Shown here: positions 3,708 to 22,645 of the stretch, in pieces
Layout of the letters: each line of letters opens with the position of its first letter
How positions within the stretch are numbered: position 1 is the first letter of the stretch
NCBI RefSeq assembly: GCF_014132355.1
Contig: NZ_BLZO01000130.1
Location: 1 to 47,058 of the forward strand
DNA: 47,058 nt
From: Okeania sp. KiyG1
GTDB lineage: Bacteria > Cyanobacteriota > Cyanobacteriia > Cyanobacteriales > Microcoleaceae
Direction of reading: 5' to 3'
Translations under genes and position numbers: made by a program
The notes under the pieces: model-generated
What the model was told of the DNA's origin: nothing
The model's input: only the letters and a program-made list of their open reading frames with translations
Database searches by the model: none

Positions 3708-4946
3708 TCAAACCAAAGAAGTTTCTTGTTTCACGGGCTGACCAATGTCTAAGCCTCCACAAGCAGACAAGATGATACCCACCTCGTTTAACGCTTTATT
3801 TAATATATTAATTGCAGCATTCTCGTCCCTGTCTAAAACTGTTTTACATTTAGGACAAGAGTGAGTTCTAACTGATAAAGTTTTAGATACTTTTTGACCA
3901 CAATTGCTACAATTTTGTGATGTACTGTGAGGGTTAACTTTAATGACATGAACGCCGCGTTTTACCGCTACTGCATTCAATTTTTCTATAAAAGTACCCC
4001 AGGCTACATCATAAATTGATTTTGATAGTTTCGTGTTTGTTGCTAAACCTCTAATATTTAGGTTTTCAACTGCAATCATGTCATATTGTTTAACTAATTT
4101 ATGAGCAGTCTTATAGTGGAAATCTTCTCTTTGCCTGGGAATATGTTGATGTAATCTAGCTATTTTGTTTTGTGCCTTTTTCCAGTTGTTAGACCCTATT
4201 TCTTTTCTAGATACTTTTCTTTGCTTTCTTGCTAAATTCGATTGAGACTTTCTATAGAATTTAGGTACAGAAACAGTCTCACCAGTATTAGTAGTTAAAA
4301 ATTCTTTTAAGCCTACATCAATGCCTACAGCAGTCTTGATATTTTCTGTAGAAATTAAACTAGGTACTGACTTATCTTCTAAACTAAAACTTACATAATA
4401 ACCGTCAGCTTTTTTGGTTATAGTTGCAGTTTTGATCGCAAACCCATCTGGAATTGGTCTATGAACTATTACTGGAATAGCACCAAATCTCGTAGTAATT
4501 ATTTGTTTTCCATCAAATTTAATTACTGCTTTGGAATGATTAACTCTACTAAAACACAATGACCTTAACTTCCCTGATTTTTTAAATCTTGGCCTTCCTC
4601 CACGTTTACCAGAGCGATCGGGTATTAGCCAACGTTTCCAAGCTTTATCTAGTCTTTGTAAGTTAATTTGCTGGACTTCTGAATATATTTCTTTGTAGTC
4701 AGGAAATAACTGTTTTGTCTGTTTAAGTGCTGATTGTTGAAAATAATAATCTGGTCTACTAGAAATTTCACCAATAGGACATGAAATTAATGAACAACTG
4801 TCAACTTGACACCTAGTTCTATTCAACCAGTCTAAACGTTGACCAAGAGCATAATTCCAATGTCTTCGTAATAGTTCTAGCCAATAATCTATTTTGACTG
4901 ACTGTTCACAGGTGGGCTTAATTTTGTAGCAATGAGTAATTATCAT
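3708..4946 (-). CDS. tnpB: IS200/IS605-family TnpB (RNA-guided nuclease)
   Basis: The 412-residue protein is of normal TnpB length. TnpB is an omega-RNA-guided DNA endonuclease, ancestral to Cas12, that favours retention of IS605-type elements. The N-terminal helix-turn-helix/OrfB region is intact. The RuvC-like triad is complete: D210 in AVGIDVGLKEF, E294 in IAVENLNIRGL, D374 in DRDENAAINIL. The zinc ribbon has C346/C349 (NCSNCG) and C364/C367 (CPKC). No tnpA is present, so this is a tnpB-only (IS1341-like) element needing TnpA in trans to move. It lies between the broken Uma2 gene and an orphan end hairpin. Confidence 0.93.
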   Translation of the reverse strand: MIITHCYKIKPTCEQSVKIDYWLELLRRHWNYALGQRLDWLNRTRCQVDSCSLISCPIGEISSRPDYYFQQSALKQTKQLFPDYKEIYSEVQQINLQRLDKAWKRWLIPDRSGKRGGRPRFKKSGKLRSLCFSRVNHSKAVIKFDGKQIITTRFGAIPVIVHRPIPDGFAIKTATITKKADGYYVSFSLEDKSVPSLISTENIKTAVGIDVGLKEFLTTNTGETVSVPKFYRKSQSNLARKQRKVSRKEIGSNNWKKAQNKIARLHQHIPRQREDFHYKTAHKLVKQYDMIAVENLNIRGLATNTKLSKSIYDVAWGTFIEKLNAVAVKRGVHVIKVNPHSTSQNCSNCGQKVSKTLSVRTHSCPKCKTVLDRDENAAINILNKALNEVGIILSACGGLDIGQPVKQETSLV

Positions 4947-8199: not shown

Positions 8200-10185
8200 A
8201 TGAATACAAGCCATAATAAACGCAAAGCAAGTCCTTATATTTTTGGCAAGCCAATTTTAAAACAAGAACAGCTATATGGAAGAGAGCAAGATATTAAACA
8301 AATAAAATCTAATTTAATACACAATAAAAAAATAACTTTGTTAGAAGTACAAAGACGTATCGGTAAAACTTCATTGCTCAAATGTTTACCTCAAAATATG
8401 AATGAATCTGAAGGTAAATTTAAGTTTGTTCATTTTTCATTTCAAGGCAAGCAAAAATATCCAATTCCCACAATATTAGATTACCTTGCTGAGGAGATTA
8501 TTGAAGACATTTATGGAATTCCTGAACAAGAAAAAAAAGTAGCAAATAGTCTAGATACTTTTTTTGGGAAATTTTTACCAAAGATTATTAATCAATATTT
8601 GTCAGATGAAAAACTGGTTTTTCTCATAGATGAATTTGACATTTTAGGAGAAGATGAAGAAACATATTCTCAAGGAAAAGGAAAAGACTTATTTGATAAA
8701 TTAGAAAAAGCTATTGAGCAAGAAAATAGACTCTTTGCTGTCCTAGTTTTTGGGAAGCCAGTAAAAAAAATAACCTATCTGGAAAGTTTCTGTAAACAAA
8801 ACCCAAAATCAATCATAACAGTTACAGAACTGGATAAGAAGAGTACAAAAAAACTAATTACTGAACTAGCTAAAGGAACACTAGAGTATGAACAAGAGGC
8901 TATTGAGGCTATTTGGAGACTCTTAAAAGGGCATCCTTCTTTAACGCAACTGCTATGCAAATCTATTTTTGAACTTTGCCATCCCCGAAACATAAAAATA
9001 GTAAATCCTAACCATGTAAGCTTAAGTCAAGAGAAAGTAATAGAAGGGGGAAGAGGGGTATTAAAAGGCTTTCTACAACCTTTGAGTGAAGCTGAAAAGT
9101 TATTTTTTCGTGCAGTAGCAGAAGCTCAAAAAAGAGGCATCGTAGACCCACTAAAGATTATAAAACCAACTGAAGAAATACCAATATCGGCTTTAATGCA
9201 AGCGGGAAAAGATTTAGTGGAATATGGCTTTTTAGAAGAAGATAAAACAGGCTATAAAATCAAAGTTGAATTAGTCCGAGTTTGGCTGTTAGACAATTAT
9301 CCTTTATCTGATGAGGAAAGACTACCAATACAGGAAATTTATCAAGCAAATCAAAATATAACTGAAACAAACAACAATGGCAGAATGCCTACTCAAAATG
9401 GAAACAATAATTCTCAAGGACCTAATCAAATTTATAAGTTTTTCTCTTTATTGTTAGTACCTGGAATTTTCATTACTCTTATTGTCATATTTATCATGAG
9501 AGCTACAGAACCTCCTCCTATATGTAATGATTTACCAAAGGAAATAAATAGCAAAATAGCATCAGGAACTTCAGAAGAGCAATTAGAAACCATAAATAAA
9601 TTTAGACAGGGGGAAAGTTTGAATCAGCAATGCCCTAATTTCGATGAAATTGAGGGAAAATTTTATGAATTACTTCACAAGTATGGGGAGGAAAAAGTGA
9701 ATGATAAAAAATTTGATGCAGGTATAAAAACCTTGTGTTCTATTCCCGATAAATATGCAAAAAAAACTCAAATCAAACAAGATATAAACAAGTTAATTGC
9801 ACCAAATAGTAGCTTTTCTATAGAACAAAAAAGAAAGTTGATTAATGAAATTTTGGAACAAGAGAAAGCAGGAAATAAATGCCCTGCCTATTCACTTGAG
9901 GATGAAACAGACAAAAAAAATTTTATCCAGAAATTAAAGCCAATAGATAAGTTTTATGAGGAAGAAGCAAAAAAACAAATCAGCAACAATAATTACCAAG
10001 AAGCTGTTAAGTTATATTGTAAAATATCAGAGCATTATCTTCAACTTCCTCAGATTAAACAACAACTAGAAAACTGGTCTAAAGATGAATTTGAGATGCT
10101 TATATTGCGCCAAGACAGAGAAAAGATAATCAGTACACTTAAGAAAATCGGTAAAGATAATTGTCCAGCATATCCAGATATTTAG
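8200..10185 (+). CDS. Membrane-anchored STAND/AAA-type ATPase, third of three
   Basis: The 661-residue protein has an ATPase half closely resembling gene 2: YGREQDIKQI, Walker A VQRRIGKTS (lysine intact), Walker B LVFLIDEFDIL, LLKGHPSLTQLLCKSIFELC, and winged-helix-like tail YGFLEEDKTGYKIKVELVRVWLL. A linker rich in Asn/Gln (about 385-412) leads to one transmembrane helix (FFSLLLVPGIFITLIVIFIM, about 414-433). About 225 residues follow, with Cys-containing helical units such as LCSIPDKYAKKTQIKQDI and YCKISEHYLQLPQIKQQL, which look like degenerate TPR-type repeats. The ATPase is probably cytoplasmic and the repeats on the other side of the membrane, which would suit a sensor. The stop lies 6 bp from the converging amt stop. 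Confidence 0.8.
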   Translation: MNTSHNKRKASPYIFGKPILKQEQLYGREQDIKQIKSNLIHNKKITLLEVQRRIGKTSLLKCLPQNMNESEGKFKFVHFSFQGKQKYPIPTILDYLAEEIIEDIYGIPEQEKKVANSLDTFFGKFLPKIINQYLSDEKLVFLIDEFDILGEDEETYSQGKGKDLFDKLEKAIEQENRLFAVLVFGKPVKKITYLESFCKQNPKSIITVTELDKKSTKKLITELAKGTLEYEQEAIEAIWRLLKGHPSLTQLLCKSIFELCHPRNIKIVNPNHVSLSQEKVIEGGRGVLKGFLQPLSEAEKLFFRAVAEAQKRGIVDPLKIIKPTEEIPISALMQAGKDLVEYGFLEEDKTGYKIKVELVRVWLLDNYPLSDEERLPIQEIYQANQNITETNNNGRMPTQNGNNNSQGPNQIYKFFSLLLVPGIFITLIVIFIMRATEPPPICNDLPKEINSKIASGTSEEQLETINKFRQGESLNQQCPNFDEIEGKFYELLHKYGEEKVNDKKFDAGIKTLCSIPDKYAKKTQIKQDINKLIAPNSSFSIEQKRKLINEILEQEKAGNKCPAYSLEDETDKKNFIQKLKPIDKFYEEEAKKQISNNNYQEAVKLYCKISEHYLQLPQIKQQLENWSKDEFEMLILRQDREKIISTLKKIGKDNCPAYPDI

Positions 10186-11886: not shown

Positions 11887-12610
11887 TTAGGACTTACGCA
11901 CTGACAATAGATATAGGGTTTTGGTGTGTTAGTGTTAGTGCGGGGGCGGGTTCACCAGCTTTTGGGTAAAACCATTAACTTAACTTGGTGCGGGGGCGGG
12001 TTCACCAGCTTTTGGGTAAAACCATTAACTTAACTTGGTGCGGGGGCGGGTTCACCAGCTTTTGGGTAAAACCATTAACTTAACTTGGTGCGGGGGCGGG
12101 TTCACCAGCTTTTGGGTAAAACCATTAACTTAACTTGGTGCGGGGGCGGGTTCACCAGCTTTTGGGTAAAACCATTAACTTAACGCGGAACCCGCCCCTA
12201 CCGCGGAACCCGCCCCTACCGCGGAACCCGCCCCTACCGCGGAACCCGCCCCCTACCGCGGAACCCGCCCCTACTGGCGTAACACAGCTAAAACTGTGCA
12301 GAGCGATTATTGGTGCGGGGGCGGGTTCACCAGCTTTTGGGTAAAACCATTAACTTAACGCGGAACCCGCCCCTACCGCGGAACCCGCCCCTACCGCGGA
12401 ACCCGCCCCTACCGCGGAACCCGCCCCCTACCGCGGAACCCGCCCCTACTGGCGTAACACAGCTAAAACTGTGCAGAGCGATTATTGGTGCGGGGGCGGG
12501 TTCACCAGCTTTGGGTAAAACCATTAACTTAACGCGGAACCCGCCCCTACCCGATGCACCATTTTAGGTGTGCCACTCCACTACAAATAGCGTTTATGCG
12601 TAAGTCCTAA
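11887..12610. mobile_element. Mobile element A1 with 14-bp inverted ends and internal tandem arrays
   Basis: The ends are perfect 14-bp inverted repeats (TTAGGACTTACGCA at 11887-11900 and its reverse complement at 12597-12610). No transposase lies inside, so it is MITE-like. The interior is a nested array: five 50-bp units starting CGGGGGCGGGTTCACCAGCT (11941, 11991, 12041, 12091, 12141), then runs of an about 18-bp unit GCGGAACCCGCCCCTACC. A duplicated block of roughly 175 bp repeats both (about 12138-12312 and 12313-12488). The two unit types are partly complementary (GGGGGCGGGTTC versus GAACCCGCCCC), so the transcript would fold extensively. Open frames here are repeat artefacts. The same ends bound A2 at 26210-26364. 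Confidence 0.82.
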
Positions 12611-12624
12611 TTAGCTATTAGCTA

Positions 12625-14259
12625 TTAAATATTCATTTTCCTCAGCTCTTCAGCAAGAGCATCTATAGTAAAATGAATTTGTTCCTCTGTGTGATGACAA
12701 GTAATAAAAAAGCGCAGTCTAGCTGCATTGTGTGGCACAGATGGATAAAACATAAACGGTACATTAATTCCCCGCTTAAATAAATTTTGGGATAATAGTA
12801 CAGACTTAATAGACTCACCCACAATAATAGGTATGACCGGAGAATCTTTACTCATACCAGTATTCAAACCTAGTTCGCGAGCGCATTCCAAAAATAGTCG
12901 AGACCTTTCTTGCAATTGTGTCACTCTTTCAGGTTCCGCCTTCAACAAACGAATAGCTGCTAATACTGATGCTGCATCTGGTGGGGAAATACCTACACTA
13001 TAGACAAATCCTGGAGAAGTATATTTAAGATATTCTACTAATGCTTTGCTTCCAGCAATATAACCACCACAACTAGCAAAAGATTTACTTAATGTACCCA
13101 TCCATAGATCGATATCATTGGGGTTGACCCCAAAATACTCACTAATACCCCTACCATGGCTGCCAATGGTACCGATAGAATGAGCCTCATCTACCATCAG
13201 AAAAGCTTTGTAACGTTGTTTAATCTCTATAAATTTCGGTAAGTCTGGAATATCACCATCTGTACTATATACACCTTCTATAGCAATAAGTATCCGTTTA
13301 TAACGATGACGGCGATCGCTCAATAACCTATCCAAAGCTTGCCAGTCATTATGAGGAAAAGCAATAATAGTTGCTCCCGATAATAAACAGCCTTGGAAAA
13401 TACTATTATGGCTCAAAGAATCATGGAGAATTAAATCATTTTGCCCAAACAAATGACTAATAGTAGTTACATTAGTCGCATGACCGCCAACATAAACAAT
13501 ACTATCCTCAACGCCTATAAAATCAGCAATTTCTCTTTCTAATTCCTGATGTAATGGCTTTTCTCCTGATAATAACCTACTGGCAGAAACAGAAGTACCA
13601 TAGCGATCGATAGCTTCCTTTGCTGCATTAGATACTGAGGAGTCGCCACACATACCTAAATAATTGTAGGTGGCATAATTCACCAATTCCCTACCATCGA
13701 TAACTGTGGTATTATTATTAATCCCTTCTTGAGGTATAAAAAACGGATTACCAATACCTGTAGCATTAATTTCTGCCATTTGCTTTTGCAGTTGCAGATA
13801 TTCTGGGTACAGGTCGAAGTTATAATATTCTAAAGGAATTTCTTCAGTTTCAATAGTTGGATTAGAAGTTGAGACCTCAGCCTCATCTTCTAATTTTTTG
13901 TGAATATTTGGCCCTGTATCCTGGGTGGTATCCTCCACTAAATATTCAGCTAAAGCCTCAATAGTAGGATAATCCAATAATAGAGTTGGAGGAAGTCGCC
14001 GACCGAGGAGATTTTCTAGTTCTCCAGAAAGATTGACCACTTCAATTGAGTTGAGGCCATAATCAATAAAATCCCGCTCAATATCTATCTCATTGGTATT
14101 AAGTTCTAGTCGTTCGGCCAATTGGGATATCAACCAGGACTTAATAGTTTCCGTAGATGGAGATAATTGTGGGACTTGCAAGGCAGGGTCTGGATCGTTT
14201 TTCACTAAAGACAGATGTTGGCTGTCTTTCTCATTCGTAAGCTGGTTCAACAGTTTCAT
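12625..14259 (-). CDS. ACP fused to alpha-oxoamine synthase (BioF/serine palmitoyltransferase-like)
   Basis: The 544-residue fusion has an acyl carrier domain at about 40-110, with the phosphopantetheine serine S71 in FIDYGLNSIEVV. From about 145 a PLP-dependent alpha-oxoamine synthase follows: YNYLGMCGDSSVSNAAKEAI, SGEKPLHQELE, H284, MVDEAHSIGTIG (D357, H360) and the PLP lysine K392 in MGTLSKSFASCGGY. Such enzymes condense an acyl thioester with an amino acid, losing CO2, to give an alpha-amino ketone (BioF, KBL, ALAS, SPT). The built-in ACP suggests the acyl group is delivered by the divergent-free neighbour downstream in the locus, the fatty acyl-AMP ligase, rather than by CoA. Which amino acid is used cannot be read. 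This is not an ordinary biotin bioF, which lacks the ACP. Confidence 0.88.
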   Translation of the reverse strand: MKLLNQLTNEKDSQHLSLVKNDPDPALQVPQLSPSTETIKSWLISQLAERLELNTNEIDIERDFIDYGLNSIEVVNLSGELENLLGRRLPPTLLLDYPTIEALAEYLVEDTTQDTGPNIHKKLEDEAEVSTSNPTIETEEIPLEYYNFDLYPEYLQLQKQMAEINATGIGNPFFIPQEGINNNTTVIDGRELVNYATYNYLGMCGDSSVSNAAKEAIDRYGTSVSASRLLSGEKPLHQELEREIADFIGVEDSIVYVGGHATNVTTISHLFGQNDLILHDSLSHNSIFQGCLLSGATIIAFPHNDWQALDRLLSDRRHRYKRILIAIEGVYSTDGDIPDLPKFIEIKQRYKAFLMVDEAHSIGTIGSHGRGISEYFGVNPNDIDLWMGTLSKSFASCGGYIAGSKALVEYLKYTSPGFVYSVGISPPDAASVLAAIRLLKAEPERVTQLQERSRLFLECARELGLNTGMSKDSPVIPIIVGESIKSVLLSQNLFKRGINVPFMFYPSVPHNAARLRFFITCHHTEEQIHFTIDALAEELRKMNI

Positions 14260-14895
14260 TGTTCACTCCTGCACCACGTTAAAATTGCTCATAACTCAGT
14301 TTTTTCTAGTAGCTTATAGGCAATAGCATATATTGGGGTCAAAAAATCCCTCTAAGAGGTCGTTTGAGAAGTCCCTTATGGTACATCACTCGCCCCCTAA
14401 ATCCCCCAAAATTGGGGGACTTTTACCAGTTCATGGATTCTTGTTCCCCCCAGAATTAGGGGGATAGGGGGCAAAATTCAGTATTAAACAACTTTTCAGA
14501 TATCCTCTAAAAATCAAAAATCAAGTTTCCGAATTACTTGGATGAGATTTTGACTTGTAACAATTACCTGAAATAGCTAACTATTTCAACTGATTGACCA
14601 CCCCAAAAAAACGCTGGGGAAGCCATGATGGTTATGTGCAATTATCTTATACGAAGTAGGAAGAAGGAGCTATCTTCAAATCAAGTCAAAAGTTAAAAGT
14701 CAAAAGTCAAAAGTTAGAAGTTAAATCAAGTCAAAAGTTAAAAGTCAAAAGTCAAAAGTTAGAAGTTAAATCAAGTCAAAAGTTAAAAGTCAGAAGTAAT
14801 CCCTGACTAACTTTGAGCATTTATAATAGCTTTACGGGCAAGTTAGAAGTTTGTAGGGGTGATTCGCGAATCACCCCTACAGAAGTCAAAAGTAA
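14260..14895. other. Intergenic region with MITE G1 and tandem 7-mers
   Basis: No gene is seen. It holds element G1 (14356-14507), then a tandem array of agtcaaa/agttaaa 7-mers arranged as about 45-bp blocks (about 14680-14800), and a small hairpin around a gattcgcgaatc core with GTAGGGGTGATTC arms (about 14854-14880). Confidence 0.6.
14356..14507 (-). mobile_element. MITE G1
   Basis: Inverted ends: GAGGTCGTTTGAGAAGT on the left and, read from the right end inward, GAGGATATCTGAAAAGT. The element is flanked by direct TAA triplets (14353-14355, 14508-14510). The interior has paired G/C-rich hairpins (CCCCCAAAATTGGGGG and CCCCCAGAATTAGGGGG). It is an inverted copy of G2 (16831-17076); the two bracket the acyl-AMP ligase gene. 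Confidence 0.7.
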
Positions 14896-16653
14896 TTATT
14901 CAAATACCTTTAAAGTTCCTGTCAAAAAGCCATCACGACAAGCATAGCGCTGAACTTTCCCGCTAGAAGTCTTAGGAATAGCTCCTGGCTTAAGCAATAA
15001 TACCCTATAAGTCTGTAAGTCGTGATTCCTTGATATAACTCGTTGGATAGACTTCATTAAATCCTCAGAAGAATTGGAACTTTCCGTCCCAGACTTGCCA
15101 TTACGCCGACTAACTTCCCGAAAATTACGTTCCACCTCAGCCACTACTACTAAACGTTCTTCTCCTGCCACCTCTAAAGAAAAGCTAGCAATACAACCTG
15201 GTCTAATCATGGGATGACTTTGCTCAACTGTCCATTCAATGTCTTGAGGGTAATGATTCCGACCATTAATAATAATCACATCCTTCAGACGACCCGTCAC
15301 AAATAATTCCCCACCCTCTATAAACCCTAAATCTCCAGTTCTCATAAATGGATATTTCCCAGGAGCTTCAGGTAAATAAGCCTCAAAAGTCTGCTTTGTT
15401 TCCTCTGGTTTGCGCCAATAACCTTCAGCAATACTTGGTCCAGAAACCCAAATTTCTCCAACTTCACCTTCAGCACAGAGAGTTAATTTTTCTGGATGGA
15501 CAATTTTAATCTGTTGGTCTGGCAAAGCTTGACCACAACCTACTAATGTTTTTGTTCCTTCTGTTTCAGAAACTAAGACGATCTGGTTTTGTTCTAATGC
15601 GTTAGTCGCAATAGTAGTTTGAACTGGTGGGGCAAATTTATCGCCTCCAGAAATTATCAGAGTAGCTTCTGCCATCCCGTAACAAGGATAAAAAGCTTCT
15701 CGACGGAAACCACAAACTTCAAAAGTTTTGGCAAATCTTTCTAAAACTTGGGCACTAATAGGTTCAGCACCGTTAAATGCTACTTCCCAACTACTTAAAT
15801 CCAAATTTTGAATCTGTTCGGCTTTAATTTTACGGACACACAGATCGTAAGCAAAGTTAGGTCCACCACTGGTAGTCCCTTGATGTTGAGAAATAGCTTG
15901 TAGCCAGCGCACCGGACTTTGGAGAAACATTAACGGAGACATTAAAACTACTGGAAATGCTCCATATAAAGGTTGTACTATTCCACCAATTAAACCCATA
16001 TCGTGATAGGGAGGTAGCCAGATTACTCCTTTGCTTTCTACAGAATGTCCAAAACATTGATGAATCAGACTAGAGTTATGCAAAAGGTTGTGGTGAGTAA
16101 TCATTACCCCTTTTGGTGTGGCTGTGGAACCGGATGTATATTGAAGGAAGGCAAGGGTATTTTCGTTGATATTAGGTTCAAGCCATTTTTCTGCAAAATT
16201 GTCTGGAATATGGTCAGTAGCTAACCAACCTAAATTATTCAATTCTGGGGTTTCTGAGGCGCGACGTTCTAGGGTGGAAATGATAGATTTAGTTGTTAGA
16301 GCTACTTTGGCCTCTGTATCTCTAATAATTGTTTGAATGCGGGCCAGGGAGCGATTTGGTCTAGGGGGATAGGCGGGAACTGCAATAATTCCAGCATAAA
16401 GACATCCAAAAAAGGCGCTAATATACTCTAGTCCCGGTTGATAGATGAGTAAAGCACGTTCTCCTGGTGGACATACTGATTGGAGATAGGCAGCGATCGC
16501 CCGTGAATGTTGTTCTAGTTGTTGATAGGTGAGGCTAATTGTGTTTGTTTCTCCGTCTACTAAAAAGGTATAAGCTATTTGTTTGGGGTTTTCGATAGCT
16601 CTGTTTTGTAATAAATCTACTAATGTTTTAATTTTTTTATCTAAACTATTCAT
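14896..16653 (-). CDS. Fatty acyl-AMP ligase (FAAL)
   Basis: The 585-residue adenylate-forming enzyme activates a fatty acid as acyl-AMP for transfer to an ACP thiol. The P-loop-like motif YTSGSTATPKGVMI is at about 172-185, followed by WLPPYHDMGLIGGI and PCYGMAEATL. RTGDLGFIEGGELFVTGR, then IIINGRNHYPQDIE and the C-terminal catalytic lysine K566 in PKTSSGKVQR, are also present. The stretch around GGDKFAPPVQTTIA to CGQALPDQQIKIV is typical of FAALs rather than acyl-CoA ligases. It is co-directional with the ACP-oxoamine synthase gene 636 bp downstream, whose ACP is its likely acceptor. The ATG at 16653 gives the usual N-terminus (TLVDLLQNRA). Chain length is not predictable. Confidence 0.93.
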   Translation of the reverse strand: MNSLDKKIKTLVDLLQNRAIENPKQIAYTFLVDGETNTISLTYQQLEQHSRAIAAYLQSVCPPGERALLIYQPGLEYISAFFGCLYAGIIAVPAYPPRPNRSLARIQTIIRDTEAKVALTTKSIISTLERRASETPELNNLGWLATDHIPDNFAEKWLEPNINENTLAFLQYTSGSTATPKGVMITHHNLLHNSSLIHQCFGHSVESKGVIWLPPYHDMGLIGGIVQPLYGAFPVVLMSPLMFLQSPVRWLQAISQHQGTTSGGPNFAYDLCVRKIKAEQIQNLDLSSWEVAFNGAEPISAQVLERFAKTFEVCGFRREAFYPCYGMAEATLIISGGDKFAPPVQTTIATNALEQNQIVLVSETEGTKTLVGCGQALPDQQIKIVHPEKLTLCAEGEVGEIWVSGPSIAEGYWRKPEETKQTFEAYLPEAPGKYPFMRTGDLGFIEGGELFVTGRLKDVIIINGRNHYPQDIEWTVEQSHPMIRPGCIASFSLEVAGEERLVVVAEVERNFREVSRRNGKSGTESSNSSEDLMKSIQRVISRNHDLQTYRVLLLKPGAIPKTSSGKVQRYACRDGFLTGTLKVFE

Positions 16654-17091
16654 ATTATTTTTGATAGAAAAACTAGGGTTCTAGCAATTAATTTATAGCA
16701 GAAGGAAGGAAGAAGTAAGAAGGAGGTTTTAGTTATCTATGATATATTTCCCTGGGTTGGCTTTTGATTAAAAATCGATCTAAAGTTGCCAAAATATATC
16801 AATTTATTAATATTAGAGCTATTATTTTAAGAGCATATCTGAAAAGTTTTTTGATTCTGAATTTTGCCCCCCTAGCCCCCCAACTTTGGGGGGAACAAGA
16901 GTCAATTTGCGTCTAAAAGTCCCCCAAAATTGGGGGGGACAAGAGTCAATTTGCGTCTAAAAGTCCCCCAAAATTGGGGGATGCGCGGGGGCTTGGATTT
17001 AGCATCTAAAAGTCCCCCAAAATTGGGGGATGCGCGGGGGCTTGGATTTAGCAAATGGGACTTCTCAGACAACCTCTAAGTCTGAAATAAA
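16654..17091. other. Divergent FAAL/SDR1 spacer
   Basis: No gene is seen. Only about 175 bp (16654-16830) is not mobile element; the rest is G2 (16831-17076), which ends 15 bp before the first reductase start. Promoters for FAAL, and possibly the reductases, must lie in this spacer or in the element itself. Confidence 0.6.
16831..17076 (+). mobile_element. MITE G2, directly upstream of the first SDR
   Basis: It begins GAGCATATCTGAAAAGT and ends with ACTTCTCAGACAACCTC. It is flanked by TAA on both sides (16828-16830, 17077-17079). The interior is expanded by repeats of a tctaaaagtcccccaaaattgggg unit and a roughly 60-bp direct duplication (GGGGGATGCGCGGGGGCTTG occurs twice). It is homologous to G1 in inverse orientation. 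Confidence 0.7.
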
Positions 17092-17829
17092 ATGACACAA
17101 CAACATATAACCTTAATTACTGGTGCAAGTCGGGGAATAGGTTTCTCTACGGCAGAATACCTGGCAAAAAAAGGACATCTAGTAATTGGCCTGGCACGTC
17201 ATGCCCCCGAAAAGACCTTTCCTGGTGAATTTTTTACAGTCGATCTGAGCGATCGCGATGCTACAACAGAAACTCTGGCTAATTTAACCAAGCAGTATGC
17301 TTTTGATGGAGTGGTCAATAATGTAGGAATAGCACACCCAGAGCTACTAGAAGAAATAACACTTGATAATTTCGATGCAGTTATTGACTTAAATTTGCGT
17401 GTTGCTATCCAAGCTGTGCAAGCAGTGGTGCCATTAATGAAGGCAAAAAAGTGGGGTCGTATTGTTAATATTTCCAGTATCGCTGCTTTGGGAGCGCAAA
17501 ACCGTGGCACTTATGCTGTCAGTAAGGCCGGAATTATTAGTTTAACTCGCACTTGGGCTTTGGAGTTGGTATCGAGTGGGATAACTGTTAATGCTGTTGC
17601 TCCTGGGCCTATTGATACAGAATTATTTAGATATTATTACCCATCAGGAAGTGAAGTGGAAAAGCGCTATTTAAGTGGGGTGCCAATAGGACGTTTTGGT
17701 AAACCTTCGGAGGTAGCTGCAAGCATTGGCTTTTTCTTTTCAGAAGAGGCAGGTTATATTACTGGGCAAACTCTTTTTGTAGATGGTGGTTGTACCATTG
17801 ATACACATCCTTATTATAAGGCAAGATAA
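17092..17829 (+). CDS. Short-chain dehydrogenase/reductase, copy 1 of 3
   Basis: This 245-residue classical SDR is of FabG/3-oxoacyl-reductase type. The cofactor motif TGASRGIG is at 10-17 and NNVG at 76-79. The catalytic tetrad is complete: N101 (IDLNLRV), S128 or S129 (NISS), Y141 and K145 (YAVSKAG). The C-terminus YITGQTLFVDGGCTIDTHPYYKAR is shared by all three copies. Arg14 after the Gly-rich loop suggests NADPH use. By context it may reduce the ketone made by the ACP-oxoamine synthase, as ketosphinganine reductase does in sphingolipid synthesis. MITE G2 ends 15 bp before its ATG. Confidence 0.9.
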   Translation: MTQQHITLITGASRGIGFSTAEYLAKKGHLVIGLARHAPEKTFPGEFFTVDLSDRDATTETLANLTKQYAFDGVVNNVGIAHPELLEEITLDNFDAVIDLNLRVAIQAVQAVVPLMKAKKWGRIVNISSIAALGAQNRGTYAVSKAGIISLTRTWALELVSSGITVNAVAPGPIDTELFRYYYPSGSEVEKRYLSGVPIGRFGKPSEVAASIGFFFSEEAGYITGQTLFVDGGCTIDTHPYYKAR

Positions 17830-17988
17830 CGAAGTCAGAAGTCAGAAGTCAGAAGTCAACCCACCCCTAACCCCTCCCAACCCACCCCTAACCCCGACCG
17901 TGGAGGGAGGGGAAGTAGGGGATGGGTGAGCAACTCTCCAAAAATATTGCGCCAGTCAAGGCGGGGTTTTAGACCTATGTTATTTTGA
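17827..17988 (+). repeat. Dispersed repeat D, copy 1
   Basis: It starts at the SDR1 stop with TAACGAAGTCAGAAGTCAGA and includes tandem gtcagaa 7-mers, CCCACCCCTAACCCCTCC-type blocks, CTCCAAAAATATTGCGCC, AAGGCGGGGTTTTAG and a terminal TTATTTTG. It is shared with 34209-34362 (inverted) and 38282-38456. Confidence 0.65.
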
Positions 17989-18012
17989 TAAATTATTTTA
18001 CTATCCAGAAAA

Positions 18013-18750
18013 ATGACAGAAAAACACATCACTTTAATTACAGGTGCAAGTCGGGGAATAGGTTTTTCTACAGCAGAATACCTAGCCAAACAAGGACATC
18101 TGGTAATTGGTCTTGCACGTCACGTTCCAGAAAAACCCTTTCCTGGTGAATTTTTTACAGTCGATCTGAGCGATCGCCACGCCACAACAGAAACTCTGGC
18201 TAATTTAACGAAACAATATTCTTTTGATGGAGTTGTCAATAATGTAGGAATAGTACACCCACAACCACTAGAGGAGGTAACACTGGATAATTTCGAGGCT
18301 GTTATTGATTTAAATTTGCGTGTTGCGATACAAACTGTTCAAGCAGTGGTGCCATCAATGAAGGCGAAAAAGTGGGGTCGTATTGTTAATATTTCCAGTA
18401 TCGCTGCTTTGGGAGCGCAAGACCGCACCAGTTATACTATAGCAAAAGCTGGAATGATTAGTTTGGCTCGCACTTGGGCTTTGGAGTTTGTGTCAAGTGG
18501 GATAACTGTTAATGTTGTTGCTCCTGGGAGAATAGAAACAGAAATTGGTAGGCGCATTTTTCCAACTGGAAGTGAAGAGGAAAAGCGCTTAATTTGTGGG
18601 ATACCAATGAAGCGTGCTGGTAAACCTTCGGAAGTAGCAGCAGCTATTGGCTTTTTCTTTTCAGAGGAAGCAGGTTATATTACTGGGCAAACTCTTTTTG
18701 TAGATGGTGGGTGTAGCATTGATATACACCCTTATTACAAGGCAAGATAA
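18013..18750 (+). CDS. Short-chain dehydrogenase/reductase, copy 2 of 3
   Basis: It has the same 245-residue architecture as copy 1 and long stretches of identical DNA. TGASRGIG, NNVG, N101, NISS, Y141 and K145 (YTIAKAG) are all present. The substrate-side loop after the catalytic helix differs from copy 1 (VAPGRIETEIGRRIFPTGSE versus VAPGPIDTELFRYYYPSGSE), which suggests divergence in substrate fit after duplication. It is separated from copy 1 by dispersed repeat D and from copy 3 by only 23 bp. Confidence 0.9.
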   Translation: MTEKHITLITGASRGIGFSTAEYLAKQGHLVIGLARHVPEKPFPGEFFTVDLSDRHATTETLANLTKQYSFDGVVNNVGIVHPQPLEEVTLDNFEAVIDLNLRVAIQTVQAVVPSMKAKKWGRIVNISSIAALGAQDRTSYTIAKAGMISLARTWALEFVSSGITVNVVAPGRIETEIGRRIFPTGSEEEKRLICGIPMKRAGKPSEVAAAIGFFFSEEAGYITGQTLFVDGGCSIDIHPYYKAR

Positions 18751-18773
18751 ATATTATTTTACTCTCAAGAAAA

Positions 18774-19511
18774 ATGACACAACAACATATAACCTTAATT
18801 ACTGGTGCAAGTCGGGGAATAGGTTTCTCTACAGCAGAATACCTGGCGAGAAAAGGACACCTAGTAATTGGCCTGGCACGTCATGTCCCCGAAAAGACCT
18901 TTCCTGGTGAATTTTTTACAGTCGATCTAAGCGATCGCGATGCTACAACAGAAATTCTGGCTAATTTAACCAAGCAATATTCTTTTGATGGAATAGTTAA
19001 TAATGTAGGAATAGTACACCCACAACCATTAGAGGAGGTTACACTGGATAACTTCGAGGCAGTTATTGACTTACATTTGCGTGTTGCGATACAAACTGTT
19101 CAAGCAGTGGTGCCATCAATGAAGGCGAAAAAGTGGGGTCGTATTGTTAATGTTTCTAGTATTGCTGGTTTGGGAGTGCCATATCGCACCAGTTATGCTG
19201 CAGCTAAAGCAGGAATGATGTGTTTTACTCGCACCTGGGCGTTGGAATTTGTCAAGAGTGGGATAACTGTTAATGCTGTTGCTCCTGCAAAAATAGAAAC
19301 AAAAATGGCTAGAAGTATTTTTTCAGCAGGAAGTGAAGAGGAAAAGCGCTTAATAAGTGGGATACCAATGGGACGTGCTGGCAAACCTTCGGAGGTCGCT
19401 GCAGCTATTGGTTTTTTCTTTTCAGAAGAAGCAGGTTATATTACTGGGCAAATTCTTTATGTAGATGGTGGTTGTAGCATTGATATACATCCTTATTACA
19501 AGGCTAGATAA
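18774..19511 (+). CDS. Short-chain dehydrogenase/reductase, copy 3 of 3, tetrad Asn replaced
   Basis: The third tandem 245-residue SDR keeps TGASRGIG, NNVG, NVSS, Y141 and K145 (YAAAKAG). Where copies 1 and 2 have IDLNLRV, it reads IDLHLRV (codon CAT for AAT), replacing the Asn of the SDR Asn-Ser-Tyr-Lys tetrad by His. This Asn positions a water in the proton relay in characterised SDRs, so activity may be reduced or altered. The downstream loop also differs (VAPAKIETKMARSIFSAGSE). It ends 113 bp before the sulfotransferase start. Confidence 0.9.
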   Translation: MTQQHITLITGASRGIGFSTAEYLARKGHLVIGLARHVPEKTFPGEFFTVDLSDRDATTEILANLTKQYSFDGIVNNVGIVHPQPLEEVTLDNFEAVIDLHLRVAIQTVQAVVPSMKAKKWGRIVNVSSIAGLGVPYRTSYAAAKAGMMCFTRTWALEFVKSGITVNAVAPAKIETKMARSIFSAGSEEEKRLISGIPMGRAGKPSEVAAAIGFFFSEEAGYITGQILYVDGGCSIDIHPYYKAR

Positions 19512-19624
19512 ATCATTGATTAAAATATAAAGATGAACCAAATATAAAATCAATTGTGCCAGAATATCCTATAGCATAAGTGATATAATTTATATTTTTG
19601 ACAGCGATTAATTCAGGACTGAAA

Positions 19625-20528
19625 ATGCACATTATAAAAATTGGGTTACCTAAAAGTGGCAATTTTTGGCTACATACAATCTTACATAATATTATTGATT
19701 ATAGCAGTATTAAATATGAAAGTTTTATTCAAAATCAACCTATATATGAAATTGCTAAAACTTGGGATGTTAATCAGGTAAAAGAGCAAGTTAATATTAA
19801 TTTTTTAGATATTACAAGAAATTCTGTATCTTATAGAATAGGTAATATATTTAGATATCCAGTTGATGATTTAGATGATTATATTCACAGTTCTACTTTA
19901 GTTTGGACTCATTCCCAAATGAGCGATAGTGTGTTAAAAATCATCAAAAAATTTGACAAGTTAATATACATTATTCGTGACCCTAGAGATGTATTGGTTT
20001 CTTGGTCTAATTTTGTATTTTCTCCTTATATGCAAAGATTTTATCCTTTTTTGATTGTTGATGAAACTAACCCAGAAAGTTATTTGATTAACAATCTGAC
20101 CACGATTATTTCTGACTGGATGAATCATGTGGGGGGATATTTAAAACATCAGAAATATTTGAATATTCACTTTGTTTTCTATGAAAGATTGCTAGATGAT
20201 TTTGACCTAGAGCTAGAAAAATATTAGAATATTTGGAAATTGAATTAGATAAAAAGCTAGAGATGAAATTAAAGAAAAAGTATCATTGAATAGCATGAAA
20301 CAAGATAGTCCTAATCATATCAGAAAAGGTCAATTGGCACAGTGGGTTAATATTCTCACCGATTCCCAAAAAGAGGAGGTTTTGCAAATGGCAACTCCTC
20401 TATTAAAGCTGTTAAATTATCCGTTGAATAGTCAAATAGATACTTTGCCAGAGTTACCTGAAAAATTACCTGAAAATATTAGTTTACCAGATGGGAAAGT
20501 GGTATTACTCAAACCATCAAATCATTGA
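19625..20528 (+). pseudogene. PAPS-dependent sulfotransferase, broken by two frameshifts
   Basis: Translation from ATG 19625 gives MHIIKIGLPKSGNFWLHTIL with the 5'-phosphosulfate-binding loop (PKSGNFWL). LIYIIRDPRDVLVSWSNFVF is the 3'-phosphate-binding segment, and HFVFYERLLDDFDLELEKY comes just before a TAG. Family members continue with a 'fLgIel' helix, and it is visible in the next frame (ILEYLEIELDKKLEM), then in the third frame (RDEIKEKVSLNSMKQDSPNH, IRKGQLAQWVNILT). Two one-base losses, in the A-run near 20215-20222 and near 20250-20262, would give exactly 302 codons. It would transfer sulfate from PAPS to a hydroxyl or amine, plausibly of the lipid product of this locus. Assembly error remains possible. 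Confidence 0.8.
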
Positions 20529-20681: not shown

Positions 20682-22070
20682 ATGAAAATTAAAATCCAAA
20701 ATCTTGGCGTATTAAAGCAAGCTGAATTTACTCTTGCCGATCTGACGATTATTTGTGGAGGTAACAATACTGGCAAGACTTACGCTACTTATGCCTTATT
20801 TGGATTTTTGTCTACTTGGGAACAGATACTTACTATTGATGTTGACGATAAAATTCAGCAATTACTATCTGAAGGTGTGATTCGTATTGAGATACAAGAA
20901 TATATTAAACAGACTCAACAAATTGTTGCGAAAGGTTGTCAGGCATATACCGAGGAATTACCAACTATTTTTGCAGCAACGCCTGAACGATTCAAAAAAA
21001 CAAAATTTGATATCATCGTTGATACAAATAACATTAATTTGAAGACTCAATTTGAGCATCAAATCATGTTCCCAGGTGTAGAACTTTTTTCACTGAATAA
21101 AAATGATGATAGTACAGAATTAGTTGTGGTGCTTCTAGTTGAACAAGAAAAAGTGAAAATTCCTACTGAGGTTCTTAATCATTTTATTACAGAAGCTCTC
21201 AAAGAAATTATTTTTTCTCAACTTTTTCCTAAACCTTTCATCGCTAGTGCAGAAAGAACAGGTGCTGCTATTTTTCGCAAAGAGTTAGATTTTACCCGCA
21301 ACCGTTTGCTTAAAAAAATAGGTCAGGCAGATTATAGGATTAATCCAAGAGAGATTTTATTTAGAGGATATCAAGATTATCCACTTCCAGTTGAAGAAAA
21401 TGTAGAGTTTACACGGGAACTAGAGACAATTTCCAAACAACGTAGTTTTCTTTATAATGACTATCCTGAAGTTTTGAATGATTTCGCCGATATTATTGGA
21501 GGTGAGTATACAGTTACTCCCAGTGACCAACTTTATTATATGCCGAAACAAGGGAAACGACCTCCAAAACTGTCTATGCTTGAAAGTTCTAGCGCTGTGC
21601 GTTCCTTACTAGATATTGGTTTTTATCTAAAACACGAAGCTCAACCTGGGGACTTACTGATGGTAGATGAACCAGAGTTAAACCTACATCCCGAAAACCA
21701 GCGTCGTGTTGCTAGACTATTTGCTCGACTTATTAATCTGGGAATCAAGGTTTTTATTACTACTCATAGTGATTACATTATCAAAGAATTGAATACCCTA
21801 ATTATGCTGAATCACGATAAACCTCATCTTAAGCGCATTGCTGAGGAGGAGGGTTATCAAAAAGAAGAATTAATATCTGCTGAAAAGATTAAGGTATATA
21901 TTGCGGAAGAAAAACTTATGCAACCAAAAGGTTATAAAAGAAAAATTAAGTGCCCAACTTTTACCCTAGCAAATATTGACCCGGAAATGGGTATTGAAGC
22001 TCGTAGTTTTGATACAACTATTGAAGAAATGAATCGAATTCAGGAAGCGATCGCCTGGGGCGAAGATTGA
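20682..22070 (+). CDS. SMC/OLD-like AAA (ABC-fold) ATPase, candidate defence gene
   Basis: The 462-residue protein starts MKIKIQNLGVLKQAEFTLAD, typical of AAA_15/AAA_21 ATPases. Walker A is GGNNTGKT (26-33), the ABC-like signature is LESSSAVRSLLDIGFYL, Walker B/D-loop is LLMVDEPELNLHPENQRRVA and the switch His is in VFITTHSDYIIKELN. The hinge is short with no obvious long coiled coil and no TOPRIM domain, so it is not a full OLD nuclease. The downstream gene overlaps its stop by one base (TGATG). This pairing resembles two-component defence systems such as Septu or PARIS, in which such an ATPase controls a small effector. Equivalence to any named system is not established. Confidence 0.85.
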   Translation: MKIKIQNLGVLKQAEFTLADLTIICGGNNTGKTYATYALFGFLSTWEQILTIDVDDKIQQLLSEGVIRIEIQEYIKQTQQIVAKGCQAYTEELPTIFAATPERFKKTKFDIIVDTNNINLKTQFEHQIMFPGVELFSLNKNDDSTELVVVLLVEQEKVKIPTEVLNHFITEALKEIIFSQLFPKPFIASAERTGAAIFRKELDFTRNRLLKKIGQADYRINPREILFRGYQDYPLPVEENVEFTRELETISKQRSFLYNDYPEVLNDFADIIGGEYTVTPSDQLYYMPKQGKRPPKLSMLESSSAVRSLLDIGFYLKHEAQPGDLLMVDEPELNLHPENQRRVARLFARLINLGIKVFITTHSDYIIKELNTLIMLNHDKPHLKRIAEEEGYQKEELISAEKIKVYIAEEKLMQPKGYKRKIKCPTFTLANIDPEMGIEARSFDTTIEEMNRIQEAIAWGED

Positions 22071-22645
22071 TGGTTGATTCTGATATTGATATCCTTAAAA
22101 GGATGATTCAACCGGAAGCTACAGTAGCATTAGAATCCGAATATCAGAAGAATATCGTCAAACTAACAGAAGATTGTGATAACTACACTGTAACTATTTA
22201 TGGAATGCCCGATGATGATGAAGTTATTGTGATTAAGGTGGATACTTTTAGCGCACCAAAAGAAATTTTCCAGGCAAACCGGGGTGAATGCAAACGTGCA
22301 GATTTTGCCATTATTGCCGATATTATCGAAAAAGGAAAATTTATCGTCTTTATTGAAATGAAGGGAGGAAAAAAGACATCTAAAGAAAAAGAGATTATCC
22401 AGCAACTAAAAGGGGCGCAGTGTTTTGTTGAATATTGTCAAGCAATTGGTAAGTCATTTTGGGAGAAACAAGATTTTCTTGATGATTATAAATATCGTTT
22501 TGTCAGTATTAAGAATATCAAAATTCCTAAGAGTAAAACACGATATGAATCTAAAGCTAATATCCACGATACTCCAGAAAATATGTTAAAAATTAGCTCT
22601 CCAAATCACATTCAATTTAATCATTTGATAGGACATAAAAAATAA
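22070..22645 (+). CDS. PD-(D/E)XK-like protein coupled to the ATPase, putative effector nuclease
   Basis: The 191-residue product starts at ATG 22070 (a TTG at 22067 is in frame but the TGATG overlap favours the ATG). I do not recognise a named family. The core reads CKRADFAIIADIIEKGKFIV then FIEMKGGKKTSKEKEIIQQL: an Asp (D78), two beta strands and E96-x-K98, then a helix with QQLKGAQCFVEY, the order seen in PD-(D/E)XK nucleases. The C-terminal 50 residues are basic (KNIKIPKSKTRYESK). Its stop codon lies at the very edge of mobile element C1. It is probably the effector of the ATPase above. Confidence 0.7.
   Translation: MVDSDIDILKRMIQPEATVALESEYQKNIVKLTEDCDNYTVTIYGMPDDDEVIVIKVDTFSAPKEIFQANRGECKRADFAIIADIIEKGKFIVFIEMKGGKKTSKEKEIIQQLKGAQCFVEYCQAIGKSFWEKQDFLDDYKYRFVSIKNIKIPKSKTRYESKANIHDTPENMLKISSPNHIQFNHLIGHKK

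Follow-up and report, generated by a model that had tools for sequence, protein, structure and literature searches.

An acyl carrier protein-fused oxoamine synthase and its fatty acyl-AMP ligase in Okeania: a probable entry step of a scattered cyanobacterial sphingolipid pathway

Background

In Pseudomonas fluorescens MYb115, SgaB is a proven L-serine-specific serine palmitoyltransferase (SPT), and SgaC is a homologue of 3-ketodihydrosphingosine reductase (KDSR) (PMC12134224). A dedicated route from acyl-ACP (acyl carrier protein) to SPT has been demonstrated in Rhodobacteria (PMC9386255). Here we analyse a locus of the cyanobacterium Okeania sp. KiyG1 in which a fatty acyl-AMP ligase (FAAL) gene lies upstream of a gene for an ACP fused to an alpha-oxoamine synthase (ACP-AOS), within a 47,058-nucleotide stretch of DNA (contig NZ_BLZO01000130.1; hereafter the window) of a 10.98 Mb genome. 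We put at roughly 70% the probability that this pair provides the acyl-ACP-fed SPT step opening a cyanobacterial (glyco)sphingolipid pathway whose genes are scattered. This reading is favoured because the AOS belongs to a clade on the LCB2 side of the tree, because most of the genes are clustered at a Moorena locus (L052), and because the Okeania genome holds homologues of the L052 partners together with a family 4 glycosyltransferase (GT4).

The sga genes resemble the clade of the window AOS in that an AOS and a KDSR homologue are clustered, and the order polyketide synthase (PKS), AOS, short-chain dehydrogenase/reductase (SDR) is also found in Shinella (L196). SgaB receives its acyl chain from an iterative PKS, whereas the Okeania ACP-AOS would be fed by a FAAL loading its fused ACP; a PKS supplies the acyl chain in both SgaABC and RkpAGH, whereas the window has no open reading frame (ORF) of PKS size (the longest has 661 aa) and has a FAAL instead. 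The string 'cyanobacteri' occurs nowhere in the main text of the SgaABC report (PMC12134224). The AasR-AcpR-SPT system of Caulobacter and E. coli BL21 (L199) is like that of Okeania in directing a dedicated ligase or acyl-ACP synthetase and a dedicated ACP to SPT (PMC9386255), but it differs in its unfused ACP, its epimerase-type reductase, its low identity (33.5% for the SPT and 33.9% for the ligase) and its position on another branch of the tree.

In rhizobia, rkpG encodes an AOS-like protein and rkpH an SDR, and we know of no FAAL in the rkpA/rkpG/rkpH system. It shares with Okeania the logic of a PKS or fatty acid synthase, an AOS and an SDR, and differs in serving capsular polysaccharide (PMC3557214). 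TamD, of tambjamine biosynthesis, has like the ACP-AOS an N-terminal ACP fused to an AOS domain, with L-serine as the hypothesised substrate (PMC4698589), but its product is a bipyrrole, unlike the sphingoid proposed here. B1XHP8 of Synechococcus sp. PCC 7002, with an AOS-type pyridoxal phosphate (PLP) domain within an AMP-binding enzyme, was modelled on the SPT of Sphingobacterium multivorum with serine docked (PMC3870968); it shares this combination with the Okeania pair, and the text on this protein proposes no pathway.

A second AOS of Moorea producens, LYNGBM3L_27370 (571 aa), was singled out in 2022 as a homologue whose SPT activity deserved testing (PMC8895605). The passage on this gene mentions no ACP fusion, FAAL, KDSR or pathway context; the Moorena ACP-AOS in our data has 577 aa and probably belongs to the same gene family. 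According to the same source, Nostoc punctiforme has BioF only and no sphingolipids, Moorea is the source of a cerebroside, and the genetic basis for two known cyanobacterial ceramides was still unreported as of 2022 (PMC8895605). In the open-access literature searched, no report brought together FAAL, oxoamine synthase and cyanobacteria, 'cyanobacterial sphingolipid' and like phrases gave no match, and a search for Trichodesmium sphingolipid gave nothing on the lipids of that genus among the matches listed; a FAAL review (PMC11837247) has zero mentions of oxoamine, sphing or PLP. No earlier description was found in that literature of a FAAL-fed, ACP-fused, LCB2-side cyanobacterial route with scattered partner genes.

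Layout of the FAAL and ACP-AOS genes

The ACP-AOS gene (12625..14259, minus strand) encodes a 544-aa fusion identified by Pfam PP-binding and Aminotran_1_2 matches, by its nearest solved relatives and by trees, and is predicted to join an acyl carrier to an SPT-like AOS. The ACP domain (aa 42-107; 13939..14136, minus strand; PF00550, 5.7e-16) has a predicted phosphopantetheine site at Ser71 in GLNS, and the oxoamine synthase domain occupies aa 191-534 (12658..13689, minus strand; Aminotran_1_2), its residue roles being read from SPT homology and from PMC3870968. The FAAL, here FAAL2 (585 aa; 14896..16653, minus strand), is recognised by PF00501, FAAL models and PDB matches, and the ACP-AOS follows it in the direction of transcription. 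The ACP-AOS is 95-97% identical to that of five Okeania genomes (L038-L042). On the other side of the FAAL, a divergent intergenic region of 438 bp (16654..17091), with tandem repeats at 16877-17053, separates this unit from a plus-strand unit of three SDR genes and a sulfotransferase (ST). The first-pass annotation of this DNA had proposed a locus for a sulfated sphingoid-like amino alcohol. Its named parts (FAAL, ACP-AOS, three SDRs and a broken ST) are all present, and its positions for S71 (within YGLNS) and K392 (within GTLSKSF) are correct; the genes it called consecutive are indeed adjacent, but they are laid out as two divergent units.

Identity and phylogeny of the oxoamine synthase

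The best PDB relatives of the AOS are SPT subunits, namely human SPTLC2, Arabidopsis LCB2a and S. multivorum SPT (E 1e-75 to 1e-68). Residues K392 (PLP), H284, D357, H360 and R516 are invariant in 16 aligned sequences, and the PLP lysine, stacking His, Asp and carboxylate-binding Arg that the AOS fold requires are all found in the window protein.

Trees were built from 72 rows (63 after removal of five long-branch rows and four near-copies) and from 49 rows, for which three long-branch rows and seven near-copies were removed, 14 more were thinned and the BL21 SPT was added; the trees took in two eukaryotic rows and two classical bacterial SPTs, with the SgaB sequence not included. In the 49-row maximum-likelihood tree, PKS-AOS, FAAL-ACP-AOS and ACP-AOS proteins form one group of 35 rows (support 100/99). 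Eukaryotic LCB2 joins this group at 100/98, and BioF and KBL fall outside. The 72-row tree likewise separates the AOS clade from BioF and KBL, and in a sampling larger than the 49-row tree the clade covers 49 rows at 99/98. Beyond the cyanobacteria, the clade has members in Planctomycetes, Legionella, Acetobacteraceae and Shinella. Two (L034, L036) of the eight rows labelled cyanobacterial BioF grouped with KBL. The SPTs of S. multivorum and E. coli BL21 branch elsewhere in the 49-row tree; a classical bacterial SPT of this type was rejected as the identity of the window protein on this separate grouping and on its failure to pass curated SPT models. Forcing LCB2 together with bacterial SPT was rejected by the approximately unbiased (AU) test with 49 rows (p 0.0069) and not with 72 rows (p 0.0987). 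Since only two eukaryotic rows were included, the LCB2 grouping is taken as a lead.

Linkage of FAAL to the oxoamine synthase

The best PDB matches of the window FAAL are 7r7g/f/e, labelled 'Polyketide synthase', which we take to be FAAL domains, followed by 3kxw, with FadD32-type AMP ligases lower. The protein is nearest to FAAL models and structures, and it reached no curated FAAL cut-off (e.g. 458 vs 775). It is 61-64% identical to the intact FAAL adjoining the ACP/AOS in Planktothrix/Arthrospira-type loci and 47-53% identical to the other intact FAAL there.

Relatives of the ACP-AOS (E <= 1e-110) were found in 99 of the 389 sampled genomes of the order, and in 45 of 149 genera; of one genus (g2) in the same family, none of the 18 genomes listed reached the cut-off. 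The neighbourhood set comprised 94 loci (L038-L093 and L122-L159; L094 excluded), of which 88 had an AOS ORF at E 1e-60 or better (L085, L087, L088, L090, L091 and L092 were dropped); distinct AOS loci number 78, with 63 discrete AOS genes and 15 within larger proteins. A FAAL adjoins the ACP-AOS in 13 of 14 loci of the Okeania/Trichodesmium group (L038-L049, L072, L085), the exception being a 4-kb contig (L047). It lies within 9 kb in 41 of the 63 discrete loci and in 49 of all 78, seven of these having both in the same protein. In L073 and L134, single-chain FAAL-ACP-AOS proteins of ~1,080 aa stand beside a KDSR-like SDR; both loci also hold glycosyltransferases weakly like diglucosyl-DAG (diacylglycerol) synthase. 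The order FAAL to ACP to AOS, which the first-pass annotation had read as a route to a long-chain amino ketone, is supported by these one-polypeptide relatives, and the co-occurrence in relatives that it had suggested checking was found.

Gene content around the AOS in relatives

Within 14 kb, Moorena locus L052 holds FAAL2, an SDR (SDRb), a GMC oxidoreductase, an OlsC-type hydroxylase and a second FAAL (FAAL1), with the ACP-AOS, a radical SAM protein and a KDSR-like SDR on the other strand. Other loci combine fewer of these genes: in L147, FAAL-FAAL-ACP-AOS-GT4-SDR run along a single strand; L129 and L154 have FAAL, a PF04116 fatty-acid hydroxylase and FAAL, then ACP-AOS and SDR (with an extra ORF between in L129); the Arthrospira-type loci L061 and L157 have FAAL, an OlsC-type hydroxylase (PF05118), FAAL, ACP, AOS and radical SAM; and L064 and L156 add a GT4 to the latter arrangement. 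Among the 78 distinct loci, a KDSR-like SDR (at least 50% identity) lies within 9 kb of the AOS in 11, an OlsC-type hydroxylase in 13 and a GT4 in 10. The best named models for the OlsC-type hydroxylase are OlsC and LpxO, with both scores under the cut-off. That two different hydroxylase families occupy the same slot between two FAALs points to a common function, for which hydroxylating an acyl chain is the simplest candidate.

In 19 of the 78 loci (e.g. L050-L053, L061) there is a B12-binding radical SAM protein with DUF4070 no more than 9 kb from the AOS, and C-methylation of a chain is a possible role for it. Genes for an FtsX-type permease, an HlyD-type protein and an ABC ATPase lie near the AOS in L073, L131-L133, L135 and L159, the identities coming from a scan of one representative of each; they resemble DevBCA glycolipid exporters, which suggests export of a product.

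Partner genes elsewhere in the Okeania genome

Candidate partners of the AOS are spread over three other contigs of its own genome (C177, C70 and C184). Compared with Moorena L052, whose FAAL2 is 64% identical to the window FAAL, these own-genome copies show 73% (GMC oxidoreductase), 70% (OlsC type), 67% (FAAL1) and 67% (KDSR-like SDR) identity. The OlsC-type hydroxylase on C70, which stands beside the GMC oxidoreductase, is also 86% identical to that of L046. In Trichodesmium (L175), a counterpart of Moorena SDRb (80%) adjoins the OlsC-type and GMC genes. Contig C184 carries an MFS transporter (57-59% identical to those at Planktothrix/Arthrospira-type AOS loci), a GT4 and a FAAL1 that is 64-67% identical to the FAAL1 of Arthrospira and Moorena, against 55% for the window FAAL with the same query.

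The SDR on C177 is 62-70% identical to AOS-linked SDRs in six loci (L129, L147, L073, L069, L052 and L137), with 63% to that of L129, whose second-best PDB match is the 3-ketodihydrosphingosine reductase TSC10; no curated KDSR model matched the C177-type SDR. The window SDR1, by comparison, is 27-31% identical to the six AOS-linked SDRs, and SDR2 and SDR3 are 31% and 29% identical to the C177 protein. TSC10 was absent among the 60 PDB matches listed for SDR1, the best of which were FabG-type. Given this distance of 27-31%, SDR1-3 were rejected as the 3-ketosphinganine reductase and are probably not the ketoreductase of the pathway; the C177 SDR, close by sequence to the AOS-linked SDRs and to TSC10, is the better candidate. 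In counts that ignore relatedness, a KDSR-like SDR was found in 86 of the 389 genomes, 76 of them with an AOS, and the OlsC type in 74, 55 of them with an AOS; in three of the ten KDSR-like genomes without an AOS match (G058, G083, G211), a divergent ACP-AOS stands directly beside the KDSR-like SDR.

In L046 and L069, FeeM-type N-acyltransferases are encoded some 4-5 kb away from the AOS (that of L069 just below the cut-off), and a GNAT adjoins the AOS in L084; these proteins are possible candidates for N-acylation.

Proposed pathway

The following scheme is predicted from sequence relations. The FAAL would adenylate a free fatty acid and load it onto Ser71 of the fused ACP, and the PLP domain (K392) would then carry out a decarboxylative condensation of the acyl-ACP with an amino acid, L-serine being the likeliest, to give 3-ketosphinganine. 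By its homology, its linkage in relatives and its co-occurrence, the KDSR-like SDR on C177 would reduce this to sphinganine. The second FAAL, the OlsC-type 2-hydroxylase and the GMC oxidoreductase would probably activate and modify the N-acyl chain, and the GT4 would probably add a sugar and the MFS transporter move the product, a glycosylated ceramide-like lipid.

Several observations weigh against this scheme. The AOS did not pass curated SPT models (321 vs 640, 298 vs 500 and 243 vs 670 bits); it matches SPT in none of the three columns that separate SPT from KBL and BioF, and at 21 LCB2-diagnostic columns it agrees equally often, six times, with LCB2, with KBL and with BioF. No FAAL lies within 9 kb in 22 of the 63 discrete loci, for example in Hydrococcus, Hyellaceae and Myxosarcina, and Planktothrix loci L063, L065, L067 and L068 have a GT4 and two FAALs (some in pieces) with no OlsC gene between them. 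At the cut-offs used, 23 of the 99 AOS genomes lack a KDSR-like match and 44 lack the OlsC type, which is present in only five of the ten AOS-bearing genomes of one genus (g4). No N-acyltransferase was identified for the pathway. No report of an Okeania sphingolipid turned up, though none of the searches was directed at this question only. The glucosylceramide mooreaside A, which has a C17 base and a C25 acyl chain and no 2-hydroxyl (PMC6272925), fits a Moorena pathway only in part; it may also originate from associated or attached bacteria such as Sphingomonadales, which occur in cyanobacterial cultures (PMC13028669).

Alternative substrates, products and identities

A different amino acid in place of serine, such as alanine or glycine, which would lead to 1-deoxysphingoids or a soluble amino-ketone natural product, is allowed by the active-site columns, which do not discriminate the amino acid. 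The assignment to serine derives from gene arrangement rather than from residues, because the arrangement of SgaB, a proven serine-specific SPT, resembles the PKS-AOS-SDR order of Shinella L196, a member of the AOS clade. In addition, S391, which by our numbering aligns to Ser242, the residue that a docked model (PMC3870968) suggests as binding the hydroxyl of serine, is invariant in the 16 aligned sequences, although some BioF also have Ser there. On this balance a different amino acid seems unlikely.

A second alternative concerns the use of the product and not the reaction, since the opening reactions would not differ: as with rkp, the lipid might serve a surface polysaccharide or capsule. 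The Shinella relative has PKS-AOS-SDR followed by capsule and ABC transporter genes, rkpA and rkpGHIJ are reported to be responsible for the synthesis, modification and transport of a lipophilic molecule, a possible carrier or anchor of capsular polysaccharide (KPS) (PMC3557214), and GT39/PMT-type glycosyltransferases adjoin some cyanobacterial AOS loci; the second FAAL and the acyl hydroxylases suit a ceramide better, however, and the polysaccharide role is held to be doubtful.

Less probable again is the first-pass proposal itself, in which a sulfated sphingoid-like amino alcohol is the product of one locus, with the three tandem SDRs as ketone reductases and the ST as the sulfating enzyme. 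SDR1 (17092..17829, plus strand), SDR2 (18013..18750, plus strand) and SDR3 (18774..19511, plus strand) are 245-aa paralogues with 79.6-86.1% pairwise identity (82% between SDR2 and SDR1, 86% between SDR3 and SDR2), all with TGASRGIG and YxxxK; by profile matches SDR1 is PRK07577-type, and its place would be accessory. The ST has PF00685 above the cut-off and is broken in this strain, as the annotation had stated: piece 1 (19625..20221, plus strand) corresponds to aa 1-199 of an intact 301-aa relative, by comparison with which ATG 19625 is the likely start, and piece 2 (20256..20525, plus strand) to aa 212-301 in another frame, with tblastn identities of 77% and 83% to the ST of L048 (Okeania sp. 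SIO2F4). The break may be an assembly error; the GT4 of the same genome also lies in two ORFs (L200 5499-6775, C184), whereas ten other genomes having a GT4 give a single match.

In favour of the single-locus proposal, the SDRs and ST adjoin the FAAL and AOS in the window, window-type SDRs stand intact beside the FAAL/AOS in five of the 14 Okeania/Trichodesmium-group loci (L039, L040, L041, L048, L085), and an intact linked ST, for which the annotation had suggested looking, exists in relatives, although only two of the 14 (L048, L085) have one; L041 and L072 keep remnants. A different PF00685 protein (8565-9473) lies directly upstream of the AOS (from 9884) in L057 (Prochloraceae), so an ST beside the AOS is not unique to this group. 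Conversely, the SDRs are partial or decayed in L042 (one stop), L043 (contig edge) and L072 (six stops), and were not seen in L038, L044-L047 and L049, L038 and L047 having little upstream sequence; the ST too was not seen in L044-L047 and L049. In Hydrocoleum (L182), two SDR copies and an ST, all frame-broken, lie on a separate 5.8-kb contig that has no AOS. In the set of loci examined, only those of the Okeania/Trichodesmium group show the SDR/ST unit, the genome-wide search having covered 13 genomes. Each of these has 12 to 34 PF00685 matches, and the 22 in the Okeania sp. KiyG1 genome make one adjoining ST weak evidence. Sulfation is downgraded for these two reasons, the scarcity of intact ST genes and the commonness of PF00685 matches, and is the weakest part of the earlier proposal. 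Its ketone-reducing role for the three SDRs gives way to the C177 SDR, which fits the AOS-linked family far more closely, and a single locus for the whole pathway looks incomplete, because in Okeania and Trichodesmium the partner genes are scattered over other contigs. The SDR/ST unit looks like a lineage-restricted accessory that may modify or sulfate the product in some strains, and the proposal as a whole is improbable.

Finally, a conventional enzyme of biotin or heme synthesis (BioF or HemA) fused by chance to an ACP, which the first-pass annotation had named as the finding that would count against its own proposal, can be dismissed as highly improbable: NCBIfam bioF is the top-scoring model for the AOS (351 bits), but this is below its cut-off of 426, as is the 5-aminolevulinate synthase score (237.7 against 338.6), a BioF-like gene is encoded separately on C115, and the AOS lies outside the BioF and HemA rows of the 72-row tree. 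The cut-off of the KBL model was not reached by the AOS either.

Other features of the window

Directly downstream of the ACP-AOS are tandem arrays at 11938-12551 (50-bp, 18-bp and 175-bp units), and further repeats lie at 14678-14797. In L039-L042 and L048 the AOS is followed by a FAD monooxygenase-like gene of 469-482 aa, and in L039-L042 also by an MGS-DAGK_cat lipid-kinase-like gene; in the window and L038 an ammonium transporter occupies the place of the FAD monooxygenase-like gene. Beyond the ST, an AAA ATPase and a small partner (20682-22070 and 22067-22645, plus strand) match the PADLOC candidate defence pair PDC-M47A/B (772 and 270 bits), homologues of which adjoin the locus in L039, L040, L041 (with the ATPase in pieces) and L045. 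The window also encodes an IS605 OrfB/TnpB-type protein with a Cas12f1-like TNB domain (3708-4946, minus strand) and a reverse transcriptase with RVT_N and RVT_1 domains (42139-43164, minus strand).

Discussion

The analysis names a specific, testable gene set for cyanobacterial sphingolipid synthesis, and most of these genes are gathered at Moorena locus L052, in a genus that has yielded a glucosylceramide. A wider proposal can be put forward tentatively, although as a whole it is rather unlikely to hold: that the FAAL-fed ACP-AOS is the missing cyanobacterial SPT, present in Trichodesmium, Planktothrix, Arthrospira and Moorena, and that the nearest bacterial kin of LCB2 and KDSR are this clade and its TSC10-like reductase and not the classical bacterial SPT, so that eukaryotic sphingolipid synthesis may trace here. 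Should the proposed pathway be true, sphingolipid production would extend to bloom-forming and edible cyanobacteria, which would matter for lipid biomarkers, for host interactions and for the origin of the eukaryotic sphingolipid enzymes.

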